DNA from: Bacteroidales bacterium | Lineage (GTDB): Bacteria > Bacteroidota > Bacteroidia > Bacteroidales > UBA932 | NCBI GenBank assembly: GCA_017480345.1 | Contig: JAFVAU010000003.1 | Coordinates: 1 to 41,671 of the forward strand | Length of the DNA stretch: 41,671 nucleotides | Reading direction: 5' to 3' | In this document: piece by piece, positions 26,545 through 41,671 of the stretch | How the letters are laid out: each line of letters starts with the position of its first letter | Numbering within the stretch: position 1 is the stretch's first letter | Translations under genes and position numbers: made by a program | Notes under the pieces: model-generated | The model's input: the letters and a program-made list of their open reading frames with translations, nothing else | What the model was told of the DNA's origin: nothing | Database searches by the model: none

Positions 26545-27119
26545 CGGTGCAAAGATACGAAAATGTCCCGGATTCCCGCGAACATGGACGGATGCAGTTT
26601 CATGATTTTAACCGGGCGCTCATCCCCGCGGTACAGATGGCTGCACCAGTTGGTTTTTCCCGTATCCTTGAAGCCGCATTTTTCCATCACGCGGCCGGAA
26701 GCGGGATTGTCCACAAAGAAATCGCACCAGAGGGTATGAAAGCCTTTCTGGTTAAAGCACCAGTCGCACATGGCCTGCAACGCCTCCGTGCACAAGCCTT
26801 GGTTCCAATACGGTTTGGCAATCCAATAGCCCAGCTCCGCATCCTTGCGGCCGATGGGAATGTTGCTGTCTTCCTGGACATAATACCCCATGCAGCCGAT
26901 GGGCTCCCCGCTTTCCTTGAGCTCCAGTGCCCAGGTGCGGCCATTGGAGAACACGTCCCGGATTATGCGCAGGCTCTCCCCCACGCTCTGATGGGACGGC
27001 CAGCCCGCCCGGATGCCCACATCCGGATCTGACGCATAGCGGAAAAGGATGGGGGCGTCCGCATCGGCCCAAGGTCTGAACCTCAGGCGAGGGGTCTGTA
27101 TGAAAGCATCTTCGCTCAT
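26541..27119 (-). CDS. GNAT-family N-acetyltransferase (RimJ/RimL type)
   Basis: A 192-aa acetyl-CoA-dependent acetyltransferase. It opens with IQTPRLRFRPWADADAPILF, typical of the RimJ/RimL/ribosomal group, and has the DAELGYWIAKPYWNQGLCTE segment of motif A (acetyl-CoA pyrophosphate binding) and VDNPASGRVMEKCGF of motif B. The substrate is unknown. I chose the ATG at 27119, 6 nt after a TAATTTTG -7 box (27126-27133), rather than the upstream start at 27149. Confidence 0.83.
   Translation of the reverse strand: MSEDAFIQTPRLRFRPWADADAPILFRYASDPDVGIRAGWPSHQSVGESLRIIRDVFSNGRTWALELKESGEPIGCMGYYVQEDSNIPIGRKDAELGYWIAKPYWNQGLCTEALQAMCDWCFNQKGFHTLWCDFFVDNPASGRVMEKCGFKDTGKTNWCSHLYRGDERPVKIMKLHPSMFAGIRDIFVSLHR
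26550..26557 (-). promoter_or_regulatory. -7 box inside the GNAT gene end
   Basis: TATCTTTG on the minus strand, 5 nt before the lipoprotein start codon at 26544. It encodes part of the C-terminal VSLHR of the acetyltransferase at the same time. No clear -33 box is seen. Confidence 0.5.
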
Positions 27120-27125
27120 TGGAAC

Positions 27126-27133
27126 CAAAATTA
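27126..27133 (-). promoter_or_regulatory. -7 box of the GNAT gene
   Basis: TAATTTTG on the minus strand, 6 nt before the start codon at 27119. No good -33 element at normal spacing. Supports a nearly leaderless transcript. Confidence 0.45.
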
Positions 27134-27204
27134 CATATTTTTTCCGCAACTATAGCTGCAAATCTGTAAAAACTCCCTGCCAAACACTGGCAGAAAGTGT
27201 AAAT

Positions 27205-28572: not shown

Positions 28573-28584
28573 GAAGGCGATGCA

Positions 28585-28965
28585 TTACAGGTACTCTTCT
28601 AAAAACTCCGATGCATCTGCCACGCAGTCCGGGCAGTCGCGGAGCGGTTTCCCGGTGCCGACCCCTTTAAGCAGGCGGCACTGTGTCGCTCCGTTACGGG
28701 ACTGGAACTTTTCCATCATTTCTTTCATGCGTGCCCGGGACTTGATTCTGTCTTTGGTAGCAAGGCCCACAATCATTCCTGCGCCCACCAGCGCACCGCA
28801 TGTTCCTTCCATGTTACCCATGCCGGTTCCGTAGGCACCAGCAATGTCCAGTGCGGTCTGTTCGCCCAGCCCCACCAGATCACAATAGGTGCAAACCACG
28901 CTCTGGGCGCAGTTGTGTGTATTCTGCCGTTTCTTCTCTGCGGCGAGGTGCTTACGTGTTTCCAT
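28585..28965 (-). CDS. C_GCAxxG_C_C family protein
   Basis: A 126-aa protein of the C_GCAxxG_C_C family, named for its Cys/Gly pattern. The visible set is NCAQSVVCTYC near the N-terminus, EGTCGALVGAGMIVG in the middle, and CRLLKG...CPDC near the C-terminus. The conserved Cys suggest redox activity or metal/cluster binding, but no reaction is established. It is the first gene of a small operon with the Y-family polymerase. A GC-rich structured stretch lies upstream on the opposite strand (28990-29037). Confidence 0.82.
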   Translation of the reverse strand: METRKHLAAEKKRQNTHNCAQSVVCTYCDLVGLGEQTALDIAGAYGTGMGNMEGTCGALVGAGMIVGLATKDRIKSRARMKEMMEKFQSRNGATQCRLLKGVGTGKPLRDCPDCVADASEFLEEYL

Positions 28966-28989
28966 GATTACTTTTTGAGCAAGTCCACC

Positions 28990-29037
28990 TCAGGAACCAG
29001 GCCGTGATGCCCAAGCCGCGGTGGCAAGGTTGGGTTT
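28990..29037 (+). other. Structured stretch resembling the 32.5-kb leader
   Basis: CCACC...AACC...GCC...AAGCC-CGGTGG-AA appears in the same order as in the 32541-32612 element. The CCACC and GGTGG segments can pair. There is no gene downstream on this strand (the next gene is convergent), so it may be an orphan or decayed copy, or chance similarity. Confidence 0.25.
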
Positions 29038-29048
29038 GAGAGTGCTAT

Positions 29049-30587
29049 TCACCTTACTCTATACAAGGATGGCAGTTGTTCCTTGTTGATTTCCCAATGC
29101 CCATCTTTACGACCGCCTATTCGGGTGAGGACGCCCAACTCTTTCAGAACTGCCAAATCTCTTTCAACCGTTCGCGTAGCAACGATGCCTTTCCCCGGCA
29201 TTTCCGACATCTTTTCCGACATTTTTTGTGCCGAGATGTAAGGATCCTTATCTATCAAATCAATAATAACAAGCTGTCTTTCAGTTAGTTCTTTTCCGAC
29301 ATCTTTTCCGACATTCGCCTGTCGTTTAACAGCATCTTCCTCTGACACAATATGCAGTACAAGTTTAACTTGCATCAGCTCTGGTTGCTCTATAAGTTCC
29401 GGTTTCAACCAGTGTTTTTCATTGCAAGCACTTAGAATAAGCGGAAACCCGGACCCCAGATTCTCTCCCAGGCCTATCATACGGAACAAATTCTGGATAC
29501 GCTGATTTCTGGCCCGTGTTTCATAACCGGAATATATTTGCTCTATAGGTATCTTGAGTAAGCCTGGATTGGTAAAGACAAACTTGTTATCGTATTTCTC
29601 TACCTTCAAGACGCCGTCAAGCATCAGGTCGGCATGAATCACGGCATTCGTCATGGCTTCCCTGACTGCCTTATGCTGCGGCGTATCGTCATTTCTCTCG
29701 GAACCCTCCATCTGGAACGGTCGAGGAAGTTCTTTGGTCAGACGCGGGAGCACGTATGTTACGAAGTTATACAAGTTGTTCTCCCATGTTCCATCATATG
29801 TGAGGCGGTCACTGTAGCGCTGGTCTCCGACAAGATGAGATTTGTCAATGTAATCCAGACGCAAATTGTCGAAACGTTCCCGCACGGAAAGACCTTTTCC
29901 GAACATTAGAAGACCGGCCATGGTTAACCCCTCCTCGCCAGTTTCACGTTTCAACGTGTAAGCGCCGAATTGGCGAAGAAATTCTTTGTGGTCCATTTTG
30001 TTAAATACGTGCTCAGGGTATCTGTTACTGAAGTGATTACGATAGGCAACGAGCGTAGGGATATCAATATCGTCCATCGAGTAATGCTCCAAGAACAAAC
30101 GGTCATTCCCCTCTGAAAAGGCATCCCGGACCATCATTTTGACCACCTCCTCTTGGCAACGATAATCGCCCTCATCATTGCGGCGGTAAGTACCCCGCAT
30201 CATGTTGTTGTTGATATAAACAGGGCGTGATGAAGTATCAGCACGAGGAACCCGGATTGCAATGATTGTCTTGCCGTCAATGTCTACTGTCTCCACATCT
30301 GATTCATTCAGCAGATTGACGCTTACTTTTTCCCTGTCGTTGACAAGGTTCCAGAAATCGACACGAATCTTCCGGGCGTTATTAACGCCTGTAACGGTAA
30401 ACCTCTTAGCAATATCCGGCTCTGTCATATCCTCATTGACACCCAGGAGAATCATCCCGCCGTACGTATTGGCAAACGCTGAATATGAAGACCAGACGGA
30501 AGACGGAACTTCGGACTGCGCCAATTTACATTCCAAAGAGATTCGCTCACCTTTACGAATGGCCTCAATGATAGTGTTCTTATCCAT
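29049..30587 (-). CDS. Schlafen-type AlbA_2 / HATPase regulator with C-terminal wHTH
   Basis: A 512-aa protein. The N-terminal Schlafen AlbA_2 domain (about residues 5-130) has ISLECKLAQ (the E-x-K segment) and FANTYGGMILLGVNED. A GHKL-like ATPase domain follows with EAMTNAVIHADLMLDGVLKV and a glycine-rich GLGENLGSGFP. The C-terminal winged helix is preceded by a repeated KMSEKMSEM run, encoded by short near-repeats of TTCCGACATCTT. Related proteins are transcription regulators or defence factors, usually without a known target. The start at 30587 is set by a TTTG-N19-TAAATTTG promoter 5 nt upstream. Confidence 0.8.
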   Translation of the reverse strand: MDKNTIIEAIRKGERISLECKLAQSEVPSSVWSSYSAFANTYGGMILLGVNEDMTEPDIAKRFTVTGVNNARKIRVDFWNLVNDREKVSVNLLNESDVETVDIDGKTIIAIRVPRADTSSRPVYINNNMMRGTYRRNDEGDYRCQEEVVKMMVRDAFSEGNDRLFLEHYSMDDIDIPTLVAYRNHFSNRYPEHVFNKMDHKEFLRQFGAYTLKRETGEEGLTMAGLLMFGKGLSVRERFDNLRLDYIDKSHLVGDQRYSDRLTYDGTWENNLYNFVTYVLPRLTKELPRPFQMEGSERNDDTPQHKAVREAMTNAVIHADLMLDGVLKVEKYDNKFVFTNPGLLKIPIEQIYSGYETRARNQRIQNLFRMIGLGENLGSGFPLILSACNEKHWLKPELIEQPELMQVKLVLHIVSEEDAVKRQANVGKDVGKELTERQLVIIDLIDKDPYISAQKMSEKMSEMPGKGIVATRTVERDLAVLKELGVLTRIGGRKDGHWEINKEQLPSLYRVR

Positions 30588-30592
30588 GGTCA

Positions 30593-30623
30593 CAAATTTA
30601 GCGAAAGAATTGAGCCCGACAAA
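30593..30623 (-). promoter_or_regulatory. Leaderless promoter of the AlbA_2 regulator
   Basis: Minus strand TTTG (30620-30623), a 19-nt spacer, then TAAATTTG (30593-30600). The start codon at 30587 follows after 5 nt. Confidence 0.65.
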
Positions 30624-30625
30624 AT

Positions 30626-30733
30626 CTATTGCAAACAATCATGTCCGGTGCGATTGCAGTAAGCAAAGGCGGATTTTACCAGGAATACGATAGCGGCCGC
30701 ATAAAGGGCAACGGAAATGATGATTTCAAACAT
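30626..30733 (-). CDS. Possible 35-aa membrane peptide
   Basis: A small ORF starting MFEIIISVALYAAAIVFLV, one hydrophobic helix then a Cys-containing polar tail (CNRTGHDC). A -7 box TAGCTTTG lies at 30755-30762, 21 nt upstream. It sits between the dtd and AlbA_2 genes on the same strand. Composition and promoter favour a real small membrane protein, but there is no homology evidence. Confidence 0.35.
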   Translation of the reverse strand: MFEIIISVALYAAAIVFLVKSAFAYCNRTGHDCLQ

Positions 30734-30804
30734 GGCACAAACGTTTAACAGCCGCAAAGCTAGCGAAAGCTTGTGCCAAACCGTTGCCGATGCTAAAAAA
30801 ACTA

Positions 30805-31257
30805 TTATGCTTTGTTTTTCGTGTCGAGACAAATGGTCACCGGCCCGTCGTTCACCAGGGCCACTTTCATGTCAGCACCGAATTCACCGGTCCCCACCGG
30901 ACGGCCGATGGCGGCAGACATTGCCGCACAGAACTGTTCATACAGTGGTATGGCTAGTTCGTGACCGGCGGCATGGATATAGGACGGCCGATTCCCTTTC
31001 TTGGTGGATGCCATCAGCGTAAACTGACTCACGACCAAAGCCTCACCACCCATATCCACTACGCTGCGGTTCATTACACCCGCATCGTCGTTGAATATCC
31101 GGAGCCCGGCAATCTTCTTGACCAGCCAGTCCATGTCTTCCTGCCCGTCCTCATGCCCAATGCCAAGCAGAATCAGCAGTCCTGGTCCAATGGCCGATTT
31201 GACCTCGCCATCAATGGTGACGGAAGCCGAGGATACTCGTTGAATTACTGCACGCAT
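30805..31257 (-). CDS. dtd: D-aminoacyl-tRNA deacylase
   Basis: A 150-aa DTD enzyme that removes D-amino acids (and glycine) mischarged on tRNA. It starts [13 protein letters not shown], as the family does, and contains the active-site SQFTLMA (SQxTL-type) and the Gly-cisPro motif [11 protein letters not shown]. Full length. It stands alone on the minus strand, with the unrecognised 275-aa gene upstream. Confidence 0.93.
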
Positions 31258-31291
31258 ACTTGTATTGGTCCATAAGATCTATATTAAAAAA

Positions 31292-32119
31292 CTAAAAGCA
31301 AATTCCACAATTGTACTTTATCAGGAGATTGTCCACTGTCCTTGTCATCTTGATGCCAAGACGCTTTGAGCGTTCCATCCTGTAGCAAATCTGCTTGAGG
31401 CCGGTCCATGCGTTCCATACGCAGAAGGTTACGTCAATGGTCTTTTCGTCAATCTGGACCGCCTTTGGCGCAAAGTCTTTGTCAAATGTCCTTGCCATCT
31501 CGATGGCCGTGAACATATCTTGCTTTGTCTTATATCCAGTCCTTCCAAAGGGATGGTAACCGGCCTTCCGCTCGTGTTTTGCCCAGCGCTCAATATCTTC
31601 CTTATACCATTTCTTGGGCCGTCCGGTCGGAGTGAGATAAAACGCGATGTTCGGAAGAATCTCAATATAGTCTTCCTTATTCAACACATAATCTACTTGG
31701 GAGTAGTTGGCGTGCCAGAAGAGTGGAAGGTTATGCCACAGGTCATGAACCAGAATCCATTCCCACATGCCTTCCGGAGTGAAAGTCCAGTCCAATGACT
31801 TCCAGAGGGGCAGGTATGGTTCCGGGAGATACGGATGTCTGAATGGATCCAGGTTGTCTGCTATTTCCGCAAATGGCGGCGCATCCTCCGGCCTGGCATA
31901 GTCGGTACACTCTCCACCCATGCCGATAAGGGTAGACGGGGTCATTATCTCATAGACCAACCCCGGTTTTTTCAGAACCAGAGGGACAGTTTCCAAAATC
32001 GGGTCAAGGGACAGCGTCTTTACCGCGTCGGAAAGTTCAATGGCATCGCAGGCCGCAAGGTAGCGCTTGCAGATATCAATCAGTGGGTTGTTCGTGGAGT
32101 TATAGTCAAATTTCTTCAT
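31292..32119 (-). CDS. Conserved-looking protein of unknown function
   Basis: A 275-aa protein I do not recognise. It is rich in aromatic residues, has no signal peptide or transmembrane helix, and contains a W-rich HDLWHNLPLFWHANYSQV stretch with three His that could bind metal. The C-terminus repeats Lys/Arg-rich helices (RMERSKRLGIKMTRT). It begins 2 nt after the yccF stop, so the two are probably cotranscribed. The start at 32119 was chosen because upstream extension only reads through yccF out of frame. Confidence 0.6.
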   Translation of the reverse strand: MKKFDYNSTNNPLIDICKRYLAACDAIELSDAVKTLSLDPILETVPLVLKKPGLVYEIMTPSTLIGMGGECTDYARPEDAPPFAEIADNLDPFRHPYLPEPYLPLWKSLDWTFTPEGMWEWILVHDLWHNLPLFWHANYSQVDYVLNKEDYIEILPNIAFYLTPTGRPKKWYKEDIERWAKHERKAGYHPFGRTGYKTKQDMFTAIEMARTFDKDFAPKAVQIDEKTIDVTFCVWNAWTGLKQICYRMERSKRLGIKMTRTVDNLLIKYNCGICF

Positions 32120-32121
32120 AA

Positions 32122-32496
32122 TCAGCGAATTTCTTTGCCGAAGGGGAAAATACTGCCGATGGCCATCTTGAAGTGCTGGAGCCCCCACGGGATGCCCACG
32201 ATAGTTATGCAGAAGATAAAGCCGCACACAAGGTGGATGAGCGCAATTTCCCACCAGCCCAGCAGAATCCAGATGAGGTTCATCACCACCGATACGCAGC
32301 CCGGCTCATTTGGGCCGTTCACAAGTTCATGGCCGAAAGGCCAGAGTGCGTAAGTGCCCAGCTTGAAAAGCTGAATGCCGAAAGGGATGCCGATGATAGT
32401 GATGCACATCAGCAGACCCACGATAAAGTAGATGACGGCGATGATAATGCCTCCAAAGATAAGCCAGAGAATGTTGCCAAGGAATTTCATATTCAT
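32122..32496 (-). CDS. yccF: YccF-family inner-membrane protein
   Basis: A 124-aa protein with two repeated YccF units. Each has a hydrophobic helix followed by a G(I/V)P-type motif: LLMCITIIGIPFGIQLFKLG and IFCITIVGIPWGLQHFKMA. It is a small membrane protein of unknown role. A TAAATTTG -7 box at 32510-32517 (minus) precedes the ATG at 32496. Its promoter overlaps that of the divergent structured leader. Confidence 0.85.
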   Translation of the reverse strand: MNMKFLGNILWLIFGGIIIAVIYFIVGLLMCITIIGIPFGIQLFKLGTYALWPFGHELVNGPNEPGCVSVVMNLIWILLGWWEIALIHLVCGFIFCITIVGIPWGLQHFKMAIGSIFPFGKEIR

Positions 32497-32505
32497 GTTA
32501 TGCGC

Positions 32506-32537
32506 TTTGCAAATTTACAAAATCTTCCCTACATTTG
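32506..32537. promoter_or_regulatory. Overlapping divergent promoters, yccF / structured leader
   Basis: Plus strand: TTTG (32506-32509), a 20-nt spacer, TACATTTG (32530-32537), predicting a start at about 32541. Minus strand: TAAATTTG (32510-32517), reading toward yccF. The plus promoter places the first nucleotide right at the beginning of the structured element. Confidence 0.7.
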
Positions 32538-32540
32538 CAC

Positions 32541-32612
32541 GTGCATCAAGAGTGCCCCTTGAGGGCCACCAACCGAGCAGCCAGAAGCCACGGTGGTAAA
32601 GCGATGCGGATT
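32541..32612 (+). ncRNA. Candidate structured leader, possibly SAM-clan riboswitch-like
   Basis: The element begins where transcription should start. A closing helix can form between GCATC (32543-32547) and GATGC (32603-32607). Inside are GAGTGCC, a GCCC-cttga-GGGC hairpin, CCACC pairing with GGTGG, AACC and GGTGGTAAAGC. Order and style (ATCAAGAGTGCC...AACC...CGGTGG...GATGC) recall the SAM-I/SAM-IV riboswitch clan, but I cannot place all conserved positions, and the downstream gene is not a methionine gene. Treat the class as uncertain; that it is a structured leader is better supported. Confidence 0.35.
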
Positions 32613-32638
32613 GTTCAACATCAAAAAAAGTCTGTACC

Positions 32639-32806
32639 ATGAAAAAGTACAATTTCTTCAGCAAGAAATGCGCCGCCATCAAGCTGGCGTTCCTGAAGGA
32701 GATTCCTGAGCGCGTGGCCAAGTGCTACTACATTCAGGGGCCGCAAGGGCATGAAAAGAAAATTGCCCTGGACAGAGATTTAGTAGAATGGGAATCTGAA
32801 CTTTAA
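32639..32806 (+). CDS. 55-aa basic small protein downstream of the structured leader
   Basis: A 55-aa ORF with a basic N-terminal half (MKKYNFFSKKCAAIKLAFLK) and an acidic C-terminus (DRDLVEWESEL); two Cys. Not recognised. It is the only ORF that the 32506-32537 promoter can serve; the leader would be about 98 nt. Codon usage looks like neighbouring genes. It could be the regulated gene of the leader, or a small antitoxin- or phage-type protein. Confidence 0.5.
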   Translation: MKKYNFFSKKCAAIKLAFLKEIPERVAKCYYIQGPQGHEKKIALDRDLVEWESEL

Positions 32807-32870
32807 GCAATTCCGGACATCTGAAAAAACCCAAGTTGGACTACTTCAAAAGCTCGGCGGTCTGGTGATA

Positions 32871-33248
32871 TCATTTTTCTGTCTCCTTCAGTATTGCATT
32901 GACTTCTTCTGTCCGGTTTCTCCGCCCGGCATAGCGGAGAAGGGTTTTACGGCTGACGGCATACCGGCTGAATGCCGCGGCATAGATGGCGTAGGCCTCC
33001 GAGCCGGTAAGGGCATGGAGGGCATTGTCGCACAGGATGTCCACAAGAATTTTTTCAAGAGTGGGGACGGTAACCCCGCCCGAGACTTCAACGGGGGCCT
33101 GGCTCACCTGCGGTGTGACCACAACCAGTTCCCTGCCGGGGGCAAGCCGGGAAAGAAGGCTCCTCTCCGAATCTTGGAGGATGAGCGAGTCCGTCAGGTT
33201 TTCAAGGGCGTCGGCGACAGAACCAGCCGCAAGGCGTTTCGCACCCAC
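32871..33248 (-). pseudogene. Truncated DUF6577-like protein (C-terminal half)
   Basis: About 125 codons from a GTG at 33248. The C-terminal half has VTVPTLEKILVDILCD and a basic RYAGRRNRTEEVNAIL, which match the end of DUF6577 proteins (wHTH proteins of about 240 aa, often in type IV toxin-antitoxin-like loci). The N-terminal winged-helix half is missing. The frame overlaps the end of the DUF6088 gene (33194-33248) in a different frame. A deletion that joined two genes is the simplest reading; expression by coupling from DUF6088 remains possible. Confidence 0.5.
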
Positions 33249-33826
33249 AGGGGTGCAAGGGAAAGGTCGCGGCTGAAGTCTTCTGCAGGAATGTTCTTCA
33301 GCTGCTCACGGATGACAGCCATCTGGGCTTCGGTTACCTGCTCTTCGCCGATTTCCCGGAGGGCGGTTACAATCAAAGCCATCAAAGAAGACTTGTAGGC
33401 GAAGGTGCGCATCTCCGAGGTGTGTTTGAAGAGGATGCCGCGGCCTTTGCCGATGGAGACCCGCCGGGGTGAACCGTCGGTGACGAACACCACATTGGCA
33501 GGAATCTGGGTGCTCAAGCCCAGCCGGTAGAGGGCATAGGCACCGGTGGGTGCGATACGGACCCTGTCCCTTGCCGCGATGGCCTGTGCAATCTCCTCGA
33601 CGGAAGGAAGAATGCTTCCCCCGCCCCAGCGTTCATCGACACGGGGATAACAATAGATACCCTGCGCAACGCGCGTGAGGACGCCATTCTCGCAAAGGCG
33701 CACCAGCGCCGAACGCACTGCATCGGAGGTCCCTGCATCGGCAAAAGTATCCGGGAAAAAGAGCGCACCGCGCCCCGCCTCCTCAACACGCCGCTTGATG
33801 GAATTGTATGTGCTTTGGTCTGCCAT
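33194..33826 (-). CDS. DUF6088 / AbiEi-like antitoxin
   Basis: A 210-aa protein with an N-terminal winged helix (about residues 15-60: SDAVRSALVRLCENGVLTRV, then AQGIYCYPR) followed by the AbiEi-like core (AIAARDRVRIAPTGAYALYR). DUF6088 proteins are the antitoxin and autorepressor half of type IV toxin-antitoxin-like pairs (family knowledge). The usual partner, an AbiEii-type nucleotidyltransferase, is absent: downstream there is only a truncated DUF6577 piece. The promoter is embedded in a 14-bp inverted repeat (33834-33870) that is the likely autoregulation site. Confidence 0.75.
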   Translation of the reverse strand: MADQSTYNSIKRRVEEAGRGALFFPDTFADAGTSDAVRSALVRLCENGVLTRVAQGIYCYPRVDERWGGGSILPSVEEIAQAIAARDRVRIAPTGAYALYRLGLSTQIPANVVFVTDGSPRRVSIGKGRGILFKHTSEMRTFAYKSSLMALIVTALREIGEEQVTEAQMAVIREQLKNIPAEDFSRDLSLAPLWVRNALRLVLSPTPLKT

Positions 33827-33833
33827 AACACAA

Positions 33834-33873
33834 GTTTTGCCACAAATATATGACAAATTTGTGGCAAAACAAA
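33834..33873 (-). promoter_or_regulatory. Promoter with palindromic operator of the DUF6088 gene
   Basis: Perfect 14-bp inverted repeat, 33834-33847 and 33857-33870, around the -7 box TATATTTG (33843-33850, minus). The -33 TTTG at 33870-33873 is 19 nt upstream. One operator arm covers the spacer, the other the start region, so a dimeric repressor bound here would block RNA polymerase. Confidence 0.75.
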
Positions 33874-33906
33874 ACCTTGAAAGAGAATTAATCCGCAGAA
33901 ATACCC

Positions 33907-33970
33907 TTGTCCACGTCCACGGGGCGTGGACAATTCCTCCGGGCGTGGACAGTTGTGGACAGGGTGGACA
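33907..33970. repeat. Cluster of GTGGACA repeats
   Basis: Four direct GTGGACA copies (33926, 33945, 33955, 33964) plus one inverted TGTCCAC (33909) lie in 64 bp. TTGTCCACG/CGTGGACAA (33907-33915, 33925-33933) forms a perfect 9-bp inverted repeat. Located between the divergent DUF6088 operator and the small membrane protein gene. Could be a protein-binding array. Confidence 0.6.
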
Positions 33971-34012
33971 GGTTGCATTCTGGCTGTTCCTCCCGTTCCG
34001 GGACGGAACAGA

Positions 34013-34043
34013 TTGGCGGTATTGAGGAAAATGAGTATTTTTG
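34013..34043 (+). promoter_or_regulatory. Promoter of the small membrane protein / deoxyribosyltransferase-like pair
   Basis: TTGG (34013-34016), a 19-nt spacer, TATTTTTG (34036-34043). Predicted leader about 20 nt. Confidence 0.6.
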
Positions 34044-34066
34044 CAGACAGCAAGCATTTTACTGCA

Positions 34067-34273
34067 ATGAGTAGATTCAAGGATACGCTCCACAGGATGT
34101 TCAACTATGGGTGGTTTGTTTTCTGGTTAGTCATTATCGTCCTCCTGGGCATTTTGGCTGCGGTAATCATGACTGACATTATGGGAACGCCTGTGATTGG
34201 ATGGATTTGTATCTTCCTTACTCTGGTCGCAGTATTGCTGTATATGCTGATTGTTTGCGTTCTATTCCGCTAA
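34067..34273 (+). CDS. Small membrane protein, two helices
   Basis: A 68-aa protein with two hydrophobic helices (about residues 14-37 and 45-67) and a basic N-terminus (MSRFKDTLHR). Not recognised. A TTGG-N19-TATTTTTG promoter (34013-34043) points to the ATG at 34067 rather than to upstream in-frame starts. It ends 11 nt before the deoxyribosyltransferase-like gene and is likely cotranscribed with it. Confidence 0.55.
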   Translation: MSRFKDTLHRMFNYGWFVFWLVIIVLLGILAAVIMTDIMGTPVIGWICIFLTLVAVLLYMLIVCVLFR

Positions 34274-34284
34274 TATCATCCCCT

Positions 34285-34707
34285 ATGGCCAGAATCTACG
34301 TCGCCTCCAGCTGGAGGAACAAATACCAGCCCGAAGTGGTGGCCGCCCTCAGGAAGGCCGGCCACGAGGTCTATGATTTCCGGAATCCCAAGGACAACCC
34401 CGGCGGTATCCATTGGGCCGATGTGGATGAAAACTGGCAGGGCTGGCAGCCGGAAGAGTACATCCGGAATCTCATCCACCCTGTGGCCGAAAAAGGCTTC
34501 AAGGCCGATTTGGACGCCATGCTCTGGGCCGACACCTGCGTCCTGGTGCTTCCCTGCGGCCGCAGCGCCCACACCGAAGCCGGATGGTTTGCCGGCCGCG
34601 GCCTCAAAACCATTGTCTATATGCCGGAGAAGCAGGAGCCGGAGTTGATGTATAAGCTGTTTGACGGGGTGGTGGGGAGCTTGGAGGAACTGGTTGACGG
34701 CTTTTGA
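34285..34707 (+). CDS. Nucleoside 2-deoxyribosyltransferase-like protein
   Basis: A 140-aa protein of the nucleoside 2-deoxyribosyltransferase-like fold. It starts ARIYVASSWRNKYQPEVV (the Rossmann-like first strand and loop), has an acidic KADLDAMLWADTCVLVLP segment, and SAHTEAGWFAGRGLKTIVY, where the Glu of HTEAGW is at the catalytic position. Similar small proteins occur in phage and accessory regions and may salvage or modify nucleotides; substrate unknown. The start at 34285 was chosen over an upstream frame that overlaps the membrane protein gene. Confidence 0.65.
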   Translation: MARIYVASSWRNKYQPEVVAALRKAGHEVYDFRNPKDNPGGIHWADVDENWQGWQPEEYIRNLIHPVAEKGFKADLDAMLWADTCVLVLPCGRSAHTEAGWFAGRGLKTIVYMPEKQEPELMYKLFDGVVGSLEELVDGF

Positions 34708-34734
34708 TAACACACTGCGCTAATGTATTTATCT

Positions 34735-34929
34735 ATGAACACAATCTATATTATTCCAACAGAAGGGCTTCCGCAAGATACTGGTTATCTGGAAATCATG
34801 GCCATGACAAAAGAAGACATAGCCAAGCTTCCTCATGAGAAATTGACTCTTTCAGAATTTGAGAACGAGTGGAACGATGACCTCAAAGGGCAGTTCGACA
34901 GCACGCGACAGTTTATCAGGGTGTTTTAG
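34735..34929 (+). CDS. Small acidic protein of unknown function
   Basis: A 64-aa protein (68 if the ATG at 34723 is used), MNTIYIIPTEGLPQDTGYLE at the start and an acidic middle. No family assigned. It ends one base before the convergent DUF2075 gene stop at 34931. Codon use is AT-richer than genes before 29 kb, like the rest of the accessory region. Confidence 0.45.
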   Translation: MNTIYIIPTEGLPQDTGYLEIMAMTKEDIAKLPHEKLTLSEFENEWNDDLKGQFDSTRQFIRVF

Positions 34930-34930
34930 T

Positions 34931-37033
34931 TTAAATTTCTTTAAACCCAATACTCTTCAGGAACTGGAACGTCGGATCATAGAACTCTGGCCTTCTTGTT
35001 GCATCATCAGGATTCCCTTCAGGAATACAAATAATCATCCCCTGGCGAGCACGAGTCAGAAGAACACGATACGCATTGGTCTGATACAATTGACGTTCCG
35101 GCTTATTGATATTATTCCATCTGGAGCTAAGGAACTCACGATGCTCCCATCCTTTTGCATTATACCGAAAATCCGCATCCCACATCACACAAGTCCAGTC
35201 CAGCTCTAAGCCCTGAACTTGAAACTCTGTACAAACATCCTCAAGAAATTGGGAGGAACGGATATCGTTTTCGTCATCCAGAAACCAATGAACATGGTCG
35301 GGGTTTACCCGAACATCTATGGCCAGTGGTTTCAAACGGTAAGCCTGTGACGAACACACGATGCCCATTCGTTCAGATCCGCGAGCATGTACTTTGAGCC
35401 AGTCCTTTGCCCTATCTAGGCTGCGAGTAAGAACTATAGGGTAGCGATCTTTGATCTCAGCATAGTTGGCGCGCGCTGAATCGGAATCCATCTCAAGTAT
35501 ATCGTGTACGAGGCGAGAAAGGCTTTCAGCGCGGAAAGACCGCTTGTTTACTGAAAGGTGCAAACGCATGTCAACCGTCACATTGGGATTGCACTGGAGT
35601 CGTTCCTCAACCCGGCCTTCATCGTATTCTTTATCGGTGAGATTCGGGGAAATATAGACTTTCCAATTCTTGAATTTGCCATTGACGGCATTAATCCATT
35701 CGCTGATTCCCGCCTCACCCGTGTTAATCTCCTGTCCACCCCCAACAAGGCAAACAATCACAGCCCAGTCTTGCCGAAGATTGAGGGACCATATCAAGAA
35801 TTCCGGCTCAGAATAAGGAAAGCCAGGTATCCCCTTTTTCCTATTCAGCCATGACGACAATTGCTCCTTGGTCCATGCTCTCTGGGCTTCGTCAAAAATA
35901 GCGACATTTTCAACACCTTCAAACTTTTCGGTCCCCAACTTCCTGTATTTGGACTCATCCACCAGTAAAAGGTCGCCCTGCATGGCAAGTCCAGTGTCCG
36001 TAGTCTTCAGAACATTCAGATAATCATTGCGATAATGGTGGATAATCTGAATGAATGATTTCACCTCTCTTCTTGCGTCTGTGATATTGATTCGTTTTCC
36101 TTCTTCAGCGCTTTGCCGTTTCTTGTCACGAGCAAGGGCTTCCGTTAAGACATCCACAAGCGGTCCGTTTCCGGATAGATACACAGCCATCTCGGGTGTC
36201 CCTTTCTCACTCTGTTCAAATTGATGAATGGCCACATTCAGTCCAACCAAAGTCTTTCCAGCACCGGGTACTCCTGTAACGAAACAAATAGCTTTTTCTC
36301 CACGTTCTTTGGTTTTTGCTATAACATCCACAAGATAAGCGGTAGTACTTTTCAAATCCGTTTTATCAGACTCGTGCTTGGTAATTTCTTCCACGCTATG
36401 GTGTGTATACATATAGCTTGCTGCCTGTATGATAGTAGGTGTAGGAGCATAGCGTGAATATAGCCAGCGAGAGTCGTCAGGGTCAGAATTGCTATCCCTG
36501 AGAATATTTGGACGGGCTGCGATGGAAACTACCGTCAGAAGATCTGTCAGCAACGCGGCATTTGTGAGCAGCGGTTCGTAAACTTCGTCATTATAGGCAC
36601 TTGGATGCCAATTAAACGATGAATGCTTAGCTTCCGTTGCAACCAAAATCGGGACGATTGTTTTGTCATGACTTGCCTCATGGAAATTCTTTAAATCCAG
36701 TGCATAGTCCCACACTTGCTCTACATCGGCCCTGTTAAAAGAAACTTCTCCGGCTTTGAATTCAATGGTAAAAATTACGCCATCCAACAGTAAAATAACA
36801 TCCACGCGTTTACCAAGACGGGGGATATTGTATTCAAAGATAATCTGCCCTCGGCATCCAAAGCCATCTCCACCGGAAATGCGGTTCAGGGCATCTTTCA
36901 TGATACTGATTTCCTCCTGCCAAGCTTTTCGTTGTGTAAGAGTTATATCAAATTCACTGTTCTGAGCCAATTGCTGAAGAACAGTTTCATCCGATAAGAA
37001 ATCATAGATAGAAGCGTGGTAGTAACAAAGCAT
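34931..37033 (-). CDS. Nuclease-like/DUF2075 helicase-type NTPase
   Basis: A 700-aa protein. The N-terminal part has RLGKRVDVILLL...GVIFTIEFKAGE, the D...E-x-K pattern of a PD-(D/E)XK nuclease fold. Then an SF1-type ATPase: Walker A TGVPGAGKTLVGLN, a DEAQ Walker B in VAIFDEAQRAW, and a late QTNAYRVLLTRARQGMIIC (motif VI-like). This is the DUF2075 family, related to the Schlafen group 3 helicase; such proteins occur in accessory islands and are suspected phage-defence factors. It is transcribed from a leaderless promoter (37037-37068), with the -7 box 3 nt before the ATG. It lies next to a vsr remnant. Confidence 0.78.
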   Translation of the reverse strand: MLCYYHASIYDFLSDETVLQQLAQNSEFDITLTQRKAWQEEISIMKDALNRISGGDGFGCRGQIIFEYNIPRLGKRVDVILLLDGVIFTIEFKAGEVSFNRADVEQVWDYALDLKNFHEASHDKTIVPILVATEAKHSSFNWHPSAYNDEVYEPLLTNAALLTDLLTVVSIAARPNILRDSNSDPDDSRWLYSRYAPTPTIIQAASYMYTHHSVEEITKHESDKTDLKSTTAYLVDVIAKTKERGEKAICFVTGVPGAGKTLVGLNVAIHQFEQSEKGTPEMAVYLSGNGPLVDVLTEALARDKKRQSAEEGKRINITDARREVKSFIQIIHHYRNDYLNVLKTTDTGLAMQGDLLLVDESKYRKLGTEKFEGVENVAIFDEAQRAWTKEQLSSWLNRKKGIPGFPYSEPEFLIWSLNLRQDWAVIVCLVGGGQEINTGEAGISEWINAVNGKFKNWKVYISPNLTDKEYDEGRVEERLQCNPNVTVDMRLHLSVNKRSFRAESLSRLVHDILEMDSDSARANYAEIKDRYPIVLTRSLDRAKDWLKVHARGSERMGIVCSSQAYRLKPLAIDVRVNPDHVHWFLDDENDIRSSQFLEDVCTEFQVQGLELDWTCVMWDADFRYNAKGWEHREFLSSRWNNINKPERQLYQTNAYRVLLTRARQGMIICIPEGNPDDATRRPEFYDPTFQFLKSIGFKEI

Positions 37034-37036
37034 GTA

Positions 37037-37068
37037 CAAAAATAGTGATAAAAACGGCGCTATACAAA
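37037..37068 (-). promoter_or_regulatory. Leaderless promoter of the DUF2075 gene
   Basis: Minus strand TTTG (37065-37068), 20-nt spacer, TATTTTTG (37037-37044), then 3 nt and the ATG at 37033. Transcription should start at the start codon itself. Confidence 0.7.
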
Positions 37069-37079
37069 AAAATGTAGTC

Positions 37080-37151
37080 AACGACCGCCGCCTCCCAGGC
37101 TCTCCGGACATCGTCCTCCCCAAGTACCGCACCGTCATCTTCGTCCACGGC
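37080..37151 (+). pseudogene. Remnant of a very-short-patch repair endonuclease (vsr)
   Basis: A 24-codon piece reads NDRRLPGSPDIVLPKYRTVI and then FVHG, the core signature of Vsr endonucleases. The expected CFWHGH and the rest of the enzyme are absent; after FVHG the frame is broken and another short frame begins (AIRKNGEILRSAQEDRKKAR, ending 37299). Vsr normally pairs with a cytosine methyltransferase, none of which is left here. A decayed restriction-modification locus is likely. Confidence 0.55.
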
Positions 37152-37264
37152 ATCGGCCATCCGGAAGAACGGCGAGATCCTTCGCTCCGCTCAGGAGGAC
37201 AGAAAGAAAGCCCGCGCCCTCTATCAGGAAGAGCGCAGGCAGACAAAACAGCGGGAAGCCGCCC

Positions 37265-37641: not shown

Positions 37642-38058
37642 CTAAATTGCCGCCATTTCCCGGCCAAGTTGCCGGACTGTTTCAAGAATCTGATTTGTTC
37701 GCTTCTCAGAAGGTTTCTTGATACCATAGATGTAACGAGAAAGCAGGCTCTTGTTGATGCCTATGGTTCTGGCCACCTCGGATACATTCAGCTGCGGGAA
37801 CCGCTTGAACACATGGGCAATGACATTATTGGTGTCCGGCTCGGCTGTTTCGTAAAAACTGCTGATGTGGATATCCTCATCAATATCATCCCAATGCAGG
37901 TCGTCCCCCTCCAGGCCTATTTCATAACGGGCGCGCTGTTGTTCAGTTGCTTCGAACAACAGCGGAAAAGCCTCCAATGGACGACTGTATGTGTTTCCCT
38001 GGTCAGTCTTGATGAAGATACGTCCCTTATCAAACCAAACCTTAATAATCTTTTCCAT
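37642..38058 (-). CDS. DUF2442 protein with C-terminal HTH
   Basis: A 138-aa protein: a DUF2442 domain (about residues 1-75: KVWFDKGRIFIKTDQGNTYS, and a YEIGLEGDDLHWDDIDEDIH segment) joined to an XRE-like helix-turn-helix (VARTIGINKSLLSRYIYGIK). DUF2442 proteins are commonly paired with DUF4160 proteins in small two-gene units that look like toxin-antitoxin modules. The start at 38058 was chosen so the domain begins correctly; it is 4 nt after the DUF4160 stop. Confidence 0.78.
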   Translation of the reverse strand: MEKIIKVWFDKGRIFIKTDQGNTYSRPLEAFPLLFEATEQQRARYEIGLEGDDLHWDDIDEDIHISSFYETAEPDTNNVIAHVFKRFPQLNVSEVARTIGINKSLLSRYIYGIKKPSEKRTNQILETVRQLGREMAAI

Positions 38059-38062
38059 GCGG

Positions 38063-38296
38063 CTATTCGTCAAAATATTCATTCCAAGACTTGATGAAGT
38101 CCTCACGATATTGCACGACAGCATCAATGGCCTTTTTCAAGTCTTTTGGTTTCACTCCCTTGTTCTCAACGACCTCGGCCGTTTCAACATTGATTTTTGC
38201 CTTGCCATCTCCCGTCTCCACGTGAACATGAATAGGCAAATGTTCGTCTGAATAGAAAAAGAACCGAAGTCCGAACAGATACAGTATTGTTGGCAT
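38063..38296 (-). CDS. DUF4160 protein
   Basis: A 77-aa DUF4160 protein: MPTILYLFGLRFFFYSDEHL, then PIHVHVETGDGKAKI and a C-terminal helix ending FIKSWNEYFDE. First gene of a pair with the DUF2442-HTH gene. Function is unproven; DUF4160/DUF2442 pairs are often listed as putative toxin-antitoxin systems, in which this small protein would be the toxin-like part. Confidence 0.8.
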   Translation of the reverse strand: MPTILYLFGLRFFFYSDEHLPIHVHVETGDGKAKINVETAEVVENKGVKPKDLKKAIDAVVQYREDFIKSWNEYFDE

Positions 38297-38573: not shown

Positions 38574-38610
38574 AAAGGGTAAACCGCTGATAATTAGTGA
38601 TTTACCCTTT
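38574..38610 (-). terminator. Terminator after tRNA-Asp fragment, copy 1
   Basis: AAAGGGTAAA (38574-38583) pairs with TTTACCCTTT (38601-38610) around an AT-rich loop. Read on the minus strand, it follows the tRNA 3' end and is trailed by a T-rich run, as a rho-independent terminator of a tRNA gene would be. Confidence 0.55.
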
Positions 38611-38612
38611 AA

Positions 38613-38658
38613 GCGGTGCGGACGAGGCTCGAACTCGCGACCCCCGGCGTGACAGGCC
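38613..38658 (-). repeat. tRNA-Asp (GUC) 3' half, direct repeat copy 1 (att-like)
   Basis: On the minus strand this reads as the 3' half of tRNA-Asp: anticodon loop CTGTCAC (anticodon GTC), stem GCCGG, variable GGGTC, T-arm GCGAG-TTCGAGC-CTCGT and acceptor CCGCACC-G. No D-arm or 5' acceptor strand precedes it, so it cannot be a tRNA. It is identical over 46 bp to 41531-41576. Integrases commonly cut tRNA genes at the anticodon loop, so this is a probable attachment-site remnant. Confidence 0.85.
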
Positions 38659-38839
38659 CGTAAAAATACCCACAACTTGCTCAAAATGAGCAACTTAGAG
38701 GATACGTCTCTTCATTCTCAATTATTTCTCAATGGGGCTGTAAAGCGGGATTCACGAACCAACGCTTCACCCGTGTTTACTACCTACTACAAAAGTACAA
38801 AAATCCCTCCGGAATAGCAAAAAAACTTGCGGATGCCGG

Positions 38840-38865
38840 CCCAAAACAACCGCCCAAAACAACCG
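38840..38865. repeat. 13-bp tandem repeat
   Basis: Two identical units (CCCAAAACAACCG) at 38840-38852 and 38853-38865, flanked by GCCGG and CCGGC that can pair. It follows the PP2C gene end (minus strand) and may act as a terminator-like structure. The stretch 38659-38839 contains flank sequence shared with 41577-41671 and no gene. Confidence 0.6.
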
Positions 38866-38891
38866 GCCTCTCCACCTCCTGTGGATGCTGT

Positions 38892-39482
38892 CTAATCGGG
38901 CTTTCTAAAGATATCTATTACGGAAGAATCATCTTTGCTGTCCGGGTTGTAGAAACCGTCGGTGCAAATTCTAATGTGAAAGGCTTCGGGTAGTTTAACT
39001 TCCTCTACACTGGGTGCTTCCCGGAATCCTCTGCCGCGAATACAGTCAGTGAGATAAGAACCGCCCAAGGGGTCTGTGAACGAACTGTCTTTTGCAAAGG
39101 ACTCCATCGTTGTACCATGTTCGTCGCAGGATGAGATACGTATATTACCCAGACTTACAAAGAGCATCTGACAGTTTTGGATGTAGACAATTGCAATAGC
39201 GCATCCCATTTTCATTCCGCGCCGTAGTGATTCCTGTTCAATGGCTTCATCGGCTGAAAGCAGCGCCTGGTAAATATCTGTCTTATTGAGGATTGTCTTT
39301 TCTTCCAAAGAGAAAACAATTTGCCGGGCGGCAATCTCGGCCGCGATTTCTCCATGGTCAAGCCCACCCATTCCATCAGCCATTACGGCAAGAATGCTGT
39401 CATTGGACAGCCTCTTGACCAGAAGCCTGTCTTCGTTTACGGGAAACTGTCCCTTTTGGCTGTTTTCGCTATGATGAATCAT
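38892..39482 (-). CDS. PP2C-type Ser/Thr protein phosphatase, third gene of AbiE-like operon
   Basis: A 196-aa protein of the PPM/PP2C fold. Metal-binding motifs appear in order: NED near residue 17, VMADGMGGLDHGE (about 34-46), the LGNIRIS strand (Asn where GD is usual), ICTDGFYN, and a C-terminal DDSSVIDIF. The acidic residues needed for the two-metal centre are mostly retained, so it may be active. No Ser/Thr kinase is nearby; the target could be its operon partners. Its ATG overlaps the stop of the nucleotidyltransferase (ATGA, 39479-39482), indicating coupled translation. Confidence 0.78.
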   Translation of the reverse strand: MIHHSENSQKGQFPVNEDRLLVKRLSNDSILAVMADGMGGLDHGEIAAEIAARQIVFSLEEKTILNKTDIYQALLSADEAIEQESLRRGMKMGCAIAIVYIQNCQMLFVSLGNIRISSCDEHGTTMESFAKDSSFTDPLGGSYLTDCIRGRGFREAPSVEEVKLPEAFHIRICTDGFYNPDSKDDSSVIDIFRKPD

Positions 39483-40336
39483 TCCATTGCCGCTGTTTTG
39501 AATACATTTGCTATCATAGTCCAGGCATCACGGACAATATCATATCCGTATTCCGGCCCCATACTCTGTGTGAGGAGCTGGCTTTGCTCACCCCTGGCCA
39601 GTTCGTCTTCAATATCAGAAACATAAGAGTGTAAAACATCCTTTCCAAGAAGCGGGATGATATCTTTTGCTATCATGTAGGCCCCGGCTACAAATGGTTC
39701 AAAGGGGTCCGGGAGTACATCCAGGACTTCAAGGTGTGCAGGGCTGGTTATCTCATGAAGATAATAGTTGGCCAGAATAAAGGACATGTCCTTGGCATCT
39801 TTGTCATTGAGAAGGTGGCGGTCAAGCCATGCATCAAACTTCAAAACAAAGAAAGCGGGCGCAGATGGAATCTTAAAACTGAATGCATTATCCACCACGA
39901 CATCCACGCAGTCCTTGAGAACAGAAGCAAAACCTTTGACGGACATCATCGGGCTCTCCTCTGGCGGCCAGTAAATCTTTTCCCCTGGGGCAGTCACTCC
40001 TCCGAAGGGAACGACATCCAGTTCATAATCGGCCCCTTTCTCAGCCCCAAAATAGAAACGTTGCTTCATATGGCTGTCTTTCCTGAAACCGTTTTGAATG
40101 AGCATCTCAGAGATTTCATAGAAATCATCCCAGCTGTCAACAGCAATGGCGATATCCAGATCCCTTGTCCGTCTGGGGGAAGGCTCTGCTTCCAAATAGA
40201 GCCGGAGAATATCCCTTGACGCAGCCCCAATGACAAAGAAATCATTTCCTGCTTTATTGAAGCATGAAGACAGGACGCTTAACAGGTCAACCAACAAGGG
40301 GTTGGCAATGGTATTAGAGGAGATAGGATAGGTCAT
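39479..40336 (-). CDS. AbiEii-type nucleotidyltransferase
   Basis: A 285-aa protein of the DNA polymerase beta-like nucleotidyltransferase fold. It has FFVIGAASRDILRLYL (the GS-like helix motif), RRTRDLDIAIAV (the DxD pair) and a third acidic strand YELDVVPFG, so all three catalytic acids are present. In type IV toxin-antitoxin systems the AbiEii NTase is the toxin, and related enzymes modify tRNA (family knowledge). Its start lies inside the end of the upstream AbiEi-like gene (23-nt overlap). It is probably the effector of this cassette. Confidence 0.8.
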   Translation of the reverse strand: MTYPISSNTIANPLLVDLLSVLSSCFNKAGNDFFVIGAASRDILRLYLEAEPSPRRTRDLDIAIAVDSWDDFYEISEMLIQNGFRKDSHMKQRFYFGAEKGADYELDVVPFGGVTAPGEKIYWPPEESPMMSVKGFASVLKDCVDVVVDNAFSFKIPSAPAFFVLKFDAWLDRHLLNDKDAKDMSFILANYYLHEITSPAHLEVLDVLPDPFEPFVAGAYMIAKDIIPLLGKDVLHSYVSDIEDELARGEQSQLLTQSMGPEYGYDIVRDAWTMIANVFKTAAME

Positions 40337-41282
40337 TGTTCAGGATGCGTTGTGCCTCCTCACGGCAGCGTCCGTCAGCTGTTCCCATGAGGTCTGCGTA
40401 AAGGATTAATGGGTGAATAGCATTCTCCGGCAGTTTCCAGAACGCTTGATAAACGGAGACCGCGTTCTCTTTAGCCGGGATTAACTGCCTCGTTTTTATC
40501 AATTCGCGAATAGGAATGGCCGTATAGAGCTCAAAACTTTGCGGAATAAGGTAACCGTCTCTTTTGAACGCGCCACATTCTCCACCCCAGCTTACGCCTT
40601 GTGGTAAAAGAACGTCTTGCCATTGTTTTCTGGGAGCAAGCGAGAGGTTCGTCACAAACAGACGCGGCTTATACAACTGGTTGTACTGCTCTGCCCAGAA
40701 ATCCAGAAGTTTTGAGAGGTTGGTCAGGTTACGTCCATCTTTGGATTCAAAGCAATACTGTGGTGTAAGTGCATCGACAACATTCTTTACCGTTGCAACG
40801 GACACGTCTGTATCAATCATGATTTCACGGTAGGGCTTCCGGATATTCTTGGGGTCTAACAGGAGGTAATATAGTACCCTGAGCCCGGCAGTACGGAATA
40901 CCATGACGGTACTCTGTTTCCGGTACTCGGACTTCCTGCCTCGGAGTGACAGGAAGGGACCACCTTCGGGGGTGATCTCACAATTACCCGCAGCATCCAA
41001 TGTATAGATGCCGTCAGCTTTGGCAATGGACATCATTTCCTCCGAAATGGAACCGCACACCAATAGGGGTAGTGCATCTGCTGACCATGCACGCTCCTTA
41101 AGCGTTTCGGCTACGAAATTATAGCCTCTCTTTGTCACTGTAGTCTCCGCCATCACGTAAAACCTTCGACCCAAAATCTCCACAGTGTCATCATTTTGCA
41201 ATGCAATAGCATCGCTCATACCCAGGTGCGCTTCCAGTTGGAACAGGGCCATGCTGATGATTTCTTCTGTGCGTATGTTCAT
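40314..41282 (-). CDS. AbiEi-family antitoxin-like regulator
   Basis: A 322-aa protein resembling the Bacteroidetes type of AbiEi antitoxin. A core segment reads LPLLVCGSISEEMMSIAKAD, then GIYTLDAAGNCEIT, which is the characteristic LDAAGN motif. A winged-helix-like region follows (about residues 145-185: YREIMIDTDVSVATVKNVVD). Such proteins repress their own operon and neutralise the NTase toxin (family knowledge). It is the first gene of the three-gene operon. The start at 41282 lies 32 nt after a TATCTTTG -7 box, with a palindrome between them. Confidence 0.78.
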   Translation of the reverse strand: MNIRTEEIISMALFQLEAHLGMSDAIALQNDDTVEILGRRFYVMAETTVTKRGYNFVAETLKERAWSADALPLLVCGSISEEMMSIAKADGIYTLDAAGNCEITPEGGPFLSLRGRKSEYRKQSTVMVFRTAGLRVLYYLLLDPKNIRKPYREIMIDTDVSVATVKNVVDALTPQYCFESKDGRNLTNLSKLLDFWAEQYNQLYKPRLFVTNLSLAPRKQWQDVLLPQGVSWGGECGAFKRDGYLIPQSFELYTAIPIRELIKTRQLIPAKENAVSVYQAFWKLPENAIHPLILYADLMGTADGRCREEAQRILNNDLSYLL

Positions 41283-41292
41283 TACAAAAGTC

Positions 41293-41345
41293 TGTTTAAA
41301 AATATTAAACACAGCAAAGATAATAAACAAACAGGAAGAAACAAA
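41293..41345 (-). promoter_or_regulatory. Promoter and operator of the AbiEi-NTase-PP2C operon
   Basis: Minus strand TTTG (41342-41345), 19-nt spacer, TATCTTTG (41315-41322). A palindrome TGTTTAA-aaata-TTAAACA (41293-41311) lies at the transcription start and leader, well placed for autorepression by the AbiEi-like protein. Confidence 0.7.
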
Positions 41346-41360
41346 GAGTCCTAAGAAAAA

Positions 41361-41387
41361 AGAGCGGAACCGTTGTGATTCCGCTCT
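41361..41387 (-). terminator. Insulating terminator upstream of the AbiEi operon
   Basis: AGAGCGGAA / TTCCGCTCT (9-bp perfect arms, 9-nt loop), followed on the minus strand by a run of T (41355-41360). It lies just upstream of the operon promoter, so it would block read-through from outside. The stretch 41388-41500 is AT-rich with no gene. Confidence 0.7.
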
Positions 41388-41500
41388 CAGTTATATACAC
41401 ACATTTTACACGCATTTTATTGATATTCAACAATAAATACGTGTAATACGATAAATTTGATAAAAATATGGATTTTAAAGTGAAGCTTTATATAAACAAA

Positions 41501-41527
41501 GAAAGTCGCTGATTTTCAGCGACTTTC
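41501..41527 (-). terminator. Terminator after tRNA-Asp fragment, copy 2
   Basis: Perfect 12-bp arms GAAAGTCGCTGA (41501-41512) and TCAGCGACTTTC (41516-41527) with a 3-nt loop; on the minus strand it follows the tRNA 3' end and is trailed by TTTGTTTATA. Confidence 0.65.
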
Positions 41528-41530
41528 TAG

Positions 41531-41576
41531 GCGGTGCGGACGAGGCTCGAACTCGCGACCCCCGGCGTGACAGGCC
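41531..41576 (-). repeat. tRNA-Asp (GUC) 3' half, direct repeat copy 2 (att-like)
   Basis: 46 bp identical to 38613-38658, in the same orientation, 2,918 bp apart. As in copy 1, the sequence before the anticodon loop is not tRNA-like but resembles that of copy 1 (GGGTATTT, AAGTTGCTCATTTT, ATTGAGAAAT on the minus strand). The complete tRNA-Asp gene is not in the window. Confidence 0.85.
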
Positions 41577-41671
41577 GTTAAATACCCTCATAAGACGCTG
41601 AAAATGAGCAACTTAAGAAAGCCCATTTTCATTCTCACTGATTTCTCAATGGGACTGTAAAAGCGTGTCAA

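Follow-up and report, generated by a model that had tools for sequence, protein, structure and literature searches.

A recurrent AbiEi–nucleotidyltransferase–PP2C gene trio in Bacteroidales: a candidate toxin-antitoxin module with its own phosphatase

In the toxin-antitoxin systems TakA-TglT (MenA3-MenT3, Rv1044-Rv1045) and MenAT1, a nucleotidyltransferase (NTase) is silenced by antitoxin-induced phosphorylation of a Thr or Ser in its active site. The TglT paper postulates a phosphatase of unnamed identity and reasons that degradation of the antitoxin cannot remove the phosphate. MenA3 has been described as a homologue of AbiEi, MenA1 as unrelated. Here we analyze a stretch of 41,671 nt, called the window throughout, from Bacteroidales contig JAFVAU010000003.1 (assembly GCA_017480345.1, UBA932), in which an AbiEi–NTase gene pair is directly followed by a phosphatase gene. 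The three genes, all on the minus strand, encode an AbiEi_2 family protein of 322 aa from its ATG (40,314–41,282), the proposed antitoxin and autorepressor; a MenT/AbiEii-type NTase of 285 aa (39,479–40,336), the proposed toxin; and a compact PP2C Ser/Thr phosphatase of 196 aa whose lid region is reduced (38,892–39,482). They occupy positions 38,892–41,282 of a cassette extending from 38,613 to 41,576. In TakA-TglT and MenAT1, too, an antitoxin is paired with an NTase that shares the fold of the window NTase and has a Ser or Thr at R-x-[ST]-x-D-x-D; unlike the trio, they consist of two genes and have no phosphatase. The trio may be a module of the AbiE/MenAT kind with PP2C as an added part, and its NTase may be silenced by phosphorylation as in those systems.

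With the AbiE type IV toxin-antitoxin systems the window shares the order of antitoxin then NTase, the overlap of the genes and an AbiEi-type C-terminal domain. The AbiEi gene lies directly before the NTase gene and overlaps it by 23 nt, the NTase and PP2C genes overlap by 4 nt (ATGA), and Pfam matched AbiEi_2 (PF09952, 5.1e-17, above cut-off) and PP2C_2 (5.9e-10). The list of open reading frames and the Pfam matches agree with the first-pass annotation, which had described three overlapping minus-strand genes of these lengths, and the LDAAGN motif that it had read in the AbiEi-like protein was seen in the translation. NCBI annotates relatives of the trio as AbiEi and AbiEii/AbiGii. The window differs from AbiE by its third gene and by its NTase, which stayed below the cut-off of the Pfam AbiEii model (PF08843; 0.021, 15.2 bits versus a cut-off of 22.5). 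No AbiEii model was among the PADLOC matches of the window NTase, and 11 of the 35 family NTases matched the PADLOC AbiEii model at E 0.01 or better.

The window NTase belongs to the MenT fold. The solved folds nearest to it are those of MenT toxins that modify tRNA; for two of these toxins, silencing by phosphorylation has been described. The motif reads R55-R-T57-R-D59-L-D61, followed by D107, and R55, D59, D61 and D107 were invariant in a 12-row alignment, so that the catalytic acids are intact as first described. T57, the proposed phosphoacceptor, stands two residues before the first Asp of the DxD motif, its register relative to the MenT toxins being taken from a weak alignment. This position was occupied by Thr in 103 and by Ser in 1 of the 104 readable NTases.

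In the PP2C of the window the fold and the metal-binding aspartates (D18, D36, D175 and D184) are retained. The GDxR motif appears as GNIR, with Asn in 10 of 31 intact relatives including the window protein. The window lineage formed a single clade of 27 rows (support of 100 in the Shimodaira-Hasegawa-like approximate likelihood ratio test, SH-aLRT), separate from a sister lineage of the type found with the methylation-associated defence system (MADS) and co-inherited with its NTase. One MADS-type sequence (L152 = L186) was also present among the 32 "other" rows of this tree.

The 80 best of the 276 relatives that an NTase alignment scan found in named genomes were combined with loci from plasmids, an order-wide sample and viral contigs into a set of 108 NTase loci. 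Without two loci that had short downstream DNA (L089 and L102), the tree comprised 106 rows, of which 100 were distinct; a locus with a convergent PP2C gene (L109) was scored as lacking PP2C, and L009 and L090, which share the same NTase, were counted as two rows. A PP2C gene directly followed the NTase gene in 35 of the 106 loci, a number that includes three short or broken PP2C frames (L064, L097, L099), one locus cut by a contig end (L096) and one with a broken NTase (L017). All 35 had an AbiEi-like gene before the NTase, and in 31 the PP2C gene overlapped the NTase gene when the first ATG was taken as start. On the NTase tree the PP2C label required 9 changes, where shuffled labels required 29 on average, with near-copies kept in the tree. 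The same three-protein order is thus found in other genomes, as the first-pass annotation had suggested checking, and the PP2C that it had called a coupled third gene is recurrent, has overlapping frames and a lineage of its own, and is co-inherited with the NTase. Of the two outcomes that it had named as damaging to this view, adjacency in a single genome did not occur. Regular absence was half borne out, as 71 of the 106 loci have no directly following PP2C and a MADS-type PP2C occurs without AbiEi-NTase. Both simple extremes, an adjacency due to chance or peculiar to the window and a PP2C that is always present, were rejected on these counts. The first-pass reading of the trio as a phospho-regulated abortive-infection system on a passive mobile cassette is supported in part.

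The trio recurs as a unit in many bacteria of the gut and mouth. It was found, among others, in Bacteroides faecis, Mediterranea massiliensis, Prevotella denticola, Alloprevotella rava, Hallella seregens, a metagenome-assembled genome of Alistipes timonensis and a plasmid of Prevotella nigrescens. Near-identical modules were found in different genera; L042 and L043, and likewise L043 and L056, share about 3.9 kb and are otherwise little alike in the compared stretch. The trio was present on two viral contigs, on one of them beside Mu-like phage genes, and a search of phage records for the NTase gave no match at E 0.001. A clade of 26 NTase rows, mostly from the rumen (L013 together with 25 loci from L066-L100 and L109), has a short AbiEi that lacks the N-terminal part; none of its 26 loci has a PP2C directly downstream. 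A search for trio-type PP2C elsewhere in the genome took in 20 loci without an adjacent one and covered 19 genomes (L062 was left out). It found none in the three rumen-clade genomes searched. Where no MADS or restriction core was in view, it gave generic matches for L106, L113, L039, L063 and L079 and none for L082, L074 and L057.

A related pair of NTase and PP2C has already been flagged computationally as the PADLOC candidate PDC-M21. PDC-M21B matched 31 of 35 NTases (best 7e-11) and PDC-M21C 20 of 22 PP2Cs (best 5.9e-17), with weak scores in the window (2.8e-4 and 3.5e-5), and PDC-M21A matched none of 25 AbiEi proteins. At E 1e-20, PDC-M21C was found in none of 296 Bacteroidota genomes, a count that is uninformative since the control genomes also had no match. 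Our literature search returned nothing that joins AbiEii or type IV toxin-antitoxin systems with PP2C, and nothing that names PDC-M21.

Six MADS-like stretches of Bacteroidota share the AbiEi-NTase head and the PP2C tail with the window, whose module has no Mad-like gene and no kinase; PADLOC gave no match there to Mad2, Mad5, Mad6, Mad7 or Mad8 at E up to 1. The order AbiEi-NTase-[Mad2-5-6-7-8-like]-PP2C was observed in these six stretches (L185 and L199-L203, with AbiEi only partly inside L200), L185 being typed by PADLOC and the others by their similarity to L185. In three further stretches (L196-L198) the same head and tail enclose restriction genes, which in L198 were typed by Pfam as type I with an extra AAA_13 protein; none of the three matched the kinase profile. 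Because the head and tail stay the same around both sets of genes, AbiEi-NTase and PP2C can apparently bracket exchangeable cores. PP2Cs of the sister lineage are found in operons with a MADS-like or a restriction core, and most of these operons begin with AbiEi-NTase. Among the 71 rows without an adjacent PP2C, 12 have a sister-type PP2C farther off, 11 on the same contig and strand; ten of the 12 were seen in the DNA, that of L111 was placed by position alone and that of L108 lies on another contig. On a Bacteroides finegoldii plasmid (L204), a MADS-like operon with PP2C has a helix-turn-helix gene in place of AbiEi-NTase and stands beside mobilization genes. This operon, together with the MADS-type PP2Cs of three stray trios (L017, L103 and L105), suggests that the sister-lineage PP2C may belong to the kinase. 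The lineage of the window is a separate one.

The same stray trios, one of which (L017) has the broken NTase, and the bracketed operons are what would be expected if PP2C were a passenger, a remnant of MADS-like operons after loss of the core that is kept by neighbourhood and not by function. For the window lineage we consider this quite improbable, as it forms its own 27-row clade, keeps the metal-site aspartates, has mostly overlapping frames and is co-inherited with the NTase.

The surroundings of the phosphatase genes were compared using a simple kinase profile. It matched near 15 of the 27 PP2Cs of an order-wide comparison set (flanks of about 1.5 kb) and near none of the 35 trio loci, where the flanks measured 5 kb at most and less in several cases. 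In the window module Pfam detected no kinase domain, and the draft genome of the window, which is 91% complete, has one PP2C_2 and no match to Pkinase (PF00069). Among 25 other genomes with the trio, a single PP2C_2 was found in 19, no Pkinase over cut-off in 13 and both features together in 12; in G765, G771 and G779 a check by position identified the single PP2C as that of the trio. In a separate locus (L071, 1618-10025), an AbiEi-NTase pair without an adjacent PP2C is flanked by three Ser/Thr kinase genes.

The phosphatase could also be a functional part of the module and act on AbiEi or on phosphoproteins of host or phage instead of the NTase active site. The genetic evidence, namely adjacency in 35 of 106 loci, the PP2C clade and co-inheritance, fits this equally, and with Pkinase over cut-off in 12 of the 25 trio genomes, outside substrates may exist in about half of them. 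The lack of a Pkinase match in the window's own genome, of one over cut-off in the other 13 genomes and of a kinase near any of the 35 trio loci speaks against this possibility, which we regard as rather unlikely. A third role, that of an antitoxin, is suggested by the kinase-kinase-phosphatase system KKP (PMC11341870), a tripartite, phosphorylation-based module with a PP2C, carried on mobile elements. Its phosphatase, PfpC, renders toxic kinases harmless and can itself be blocked by a phage protein. PP2C would then reverse a toxic phosphorylation carried out by the NTase or under its control. Compared with KKP, the trio has no kinase, and its PP2C is proposed to activate and not to neutralise. 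Given that no kinase domain was found in the module or near trio loci, and that the nearest solved folds of the NTase are those of the tRNA-modifying MenT toxins, an antitoxin role seems to us very improbable.

We propose instead, with about an even chance of being right, that the trio is a three-gene toxin-antitoxin module in which AbiEi drives phosphorylation of T57, the off state, and PP2C erases the phosphate, the on state. The NTase would be a MenT-like toxin that AbiEi binds and, by inducing phosphorylation of Thr57, switches off; AbiEi would in addition repress the operon through TGTTCA-type sites. PP2C would strip the phosphate from Thr57 and return the toxin to activity. Because erasure would be built into the module, the toxin would be silent only while AbiEi re-phosphorylates it, and if AbiEi or ATP were lost in the course of an infection, PP2C could activate it quickly, as might befit a role in phage defence. 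More tentatively, and with somewhat less than even confidence, this can be extended to a self-contained phospho-switch free of any protein kinase, in which the toxin would serve as its own kinase when induced by AbiEi, the mini-PP2C as eraser and the write-erase cycle as a sensor of antitoxin or ATP loss, and in which the AbiEi-NTase...PP2C bracket would act as guard or switch of exchangeable defence cores, MADS-like or type I restriction.

Several observations weigh against the T57 switch. T57 lies inside a motif common to NTases in general, and loci without PP2C conserve it just as well, so that little can be concluded from its conservation. The partner of MenT4 does not phosphorylate this toxin, MenA1 also acts by binding, and the AbiEi profile matched no AbiEi or MenA structure among solved structures. 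The activity of PP2C is not certain, since the motif-1 Glu is replaced by Gly in 15 of 31 sequences and the motif-5 Asp by Asn in 10 of 31, the window being among the latter. AbiEi-NTase is common without PP2C, as the 71 loci show, and in an even, order-wide sample the NTase was found in 23 of 393 genomes, with PP2C directly after it in two of them (the window's own and G362); a third PP2C, in G298, stands at the end of a MADS-like operon. In MADS-like operons, one of which has no AbiEi-NTase, PP2Cs of the sister lineage accompany a kinase. Finally, beyond the 12 trio genomes that carry a Pkinase over cut-off, draft genomes may hide kinases, and with PF00069 as the sole genome-wide kinase search, kinases of other kinds are possible.

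The proposed repression by AbiEi is consistent with the region upstream of its gene. Within 130 nt before AbiEi, the 35 trio loci have a mean of 4.8 TGTTCA half-sites versus 0.26 expected from a first-order Markov model. In the window, a perfect inverted repeat, TGTTTA-N7-TAAACA (41,293–41,311; 0.01 expected by chance in the window), lies upstream of the AbiEi ATG. It is a symmetric variant of the family repeat TGTTCA-N7-TGAACA, and its alteration in both halves is the behavior expected for an operator. In a relaxed form that admits this variant, the inverted repeat was found in 31 of the 35 trio loci; the same repeat was also found in 6 of 9 MADS-linked, 17 of 26 rumen-clade, 12 of 31 other and none of 3 restriction-linked loci. 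Of the 106 rows, 104 could be scored, and the zeros of L040 (gene cut by a contig end) and L058 (start too far upstream) have little meaning since their starts were wrong. AbiEi may repress the trio operon through these sites as a putative operator. A promoter-like TTTG-N19-TATCTTTG on the minus strand (41,315–41,345), upstream of the trio, resembles the Bacteroidales promoter consensus. Two terminator-like hairpins on the same strand, one between the att-like repeat and the promoter (41,360–41,388) and one after the tRNA-Asp half (41,500–41,528), belong to four such sites in the region, versus 3.6 expected. At two near-identical loci, an inverted repeat with 25-bp arms precedes AbiEi (L050, 3887-3941; L004, 2887-2941); its 5-nt loop is inverted between the two, which suggests an invertible or gene-converted site.

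The cassette is bounded by two att-like direct repeats, each a 46-bp 3' half of tRNA-Asp identified by sequence match (41,531–41,576 and 38,613–38,658). They are identical to each other, as the first-pass annotation had stated, and match the 3' end of an intact tRNA-Asp that lies on contig C20; the host genome has no further exact copy of the 46-mer. For a 35-nt part of the half, 0 matches are expected by chance. The repeat is longer than had been noted, with 88 nt at 86% identity and a second block of 34 nt at 91%. Each half is flanked by a hairpin and, on its opposite side, by an end module that both halves share and that contains arm-like TGAGAAAT/TGAGAA sites. One conserved end module, with an arm-like TGAGAAATCAGTGAGAA site, adjoins the former repeat (41,577–41,661), another the second (38,659–38,744), and a terminator-like inverted repeat lies beyond the latter half (38,574–38,610). 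The list of open reading frames shows no integrase-like gene between the repeats, so that the combination of tRNA 3'-end direct repeats without an integrase of its own, as in a passive cassette, is present.

Similar arm-like repeats and an integrase-like gene (Phage_int_SAM_5) follow the intact tRNA-Asp on C20. There, a mobilizable element (24354-35001, L032) comprises integrase-like, primase-like, coupling-protein, relaxase, SSB and MobC genes, with IS21 genes near the contig end. In view of these repeats, the integrase-like gene and the mobilization genes, the trio appears to be a unit without an integrase of its own, set in a tRNA-Asp array in which a neighbour carries the integrase. It probably moves as such a cassette, with tRNA-Asp att-like sites at its ends. 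Of the passive mobile cassette first suggested, the repeats, the shared end modules and the lack of an integrase gene stand; no pair of occupied and empty sites was established. A scan of 60 relatives gave no match to the coding part of the cassette among the matches listed (at most 4 candidates per genome were scored), and the window contig ends 95 nt past the repeat, its cassette site not being tied to the intact tRNA-Asp of C20. Near the closest relative, L035, no tRNA-Asp repeat was found. Among 14 trio loci scanned, L035 included, one had a tRNA gene (tRNA-Ser, L043), and there is thus no sign of other trios at tRNA-Asp in a scan that tRNA halves would escape.

Other genes of the window near the cassette include a Schlafen group 3 helicase (34,931–37,246; PADLOC candidate PDC-S41, 4.3e-260) and, beside the left repeat, a possible toxin-antitoxin pair of DUF4160 (DhiT-like, under the model cut-off) and DUF2442 (37,642–38,296). 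A DUF6088/AbiEi-like protein (33,194–34,093; PADLOC AbiEi, 6.5e-63) has no NTase partner in the lists of open reading frames, to which no dedicated search was added, and a Schlafen AlbA_2/RecG-C type protein is encoded at 29,049–30,638.

Published work has left open how phosphate is removed from silenced NTase toxins, and a module with a phosphatase gene of its own allows this question to be put directly to the test. About half of the trio hosts show no Pkinase match over cut-off. Through the related phosphatase partner, a toxin-antitoxin pair is also connected with larger defence operons.

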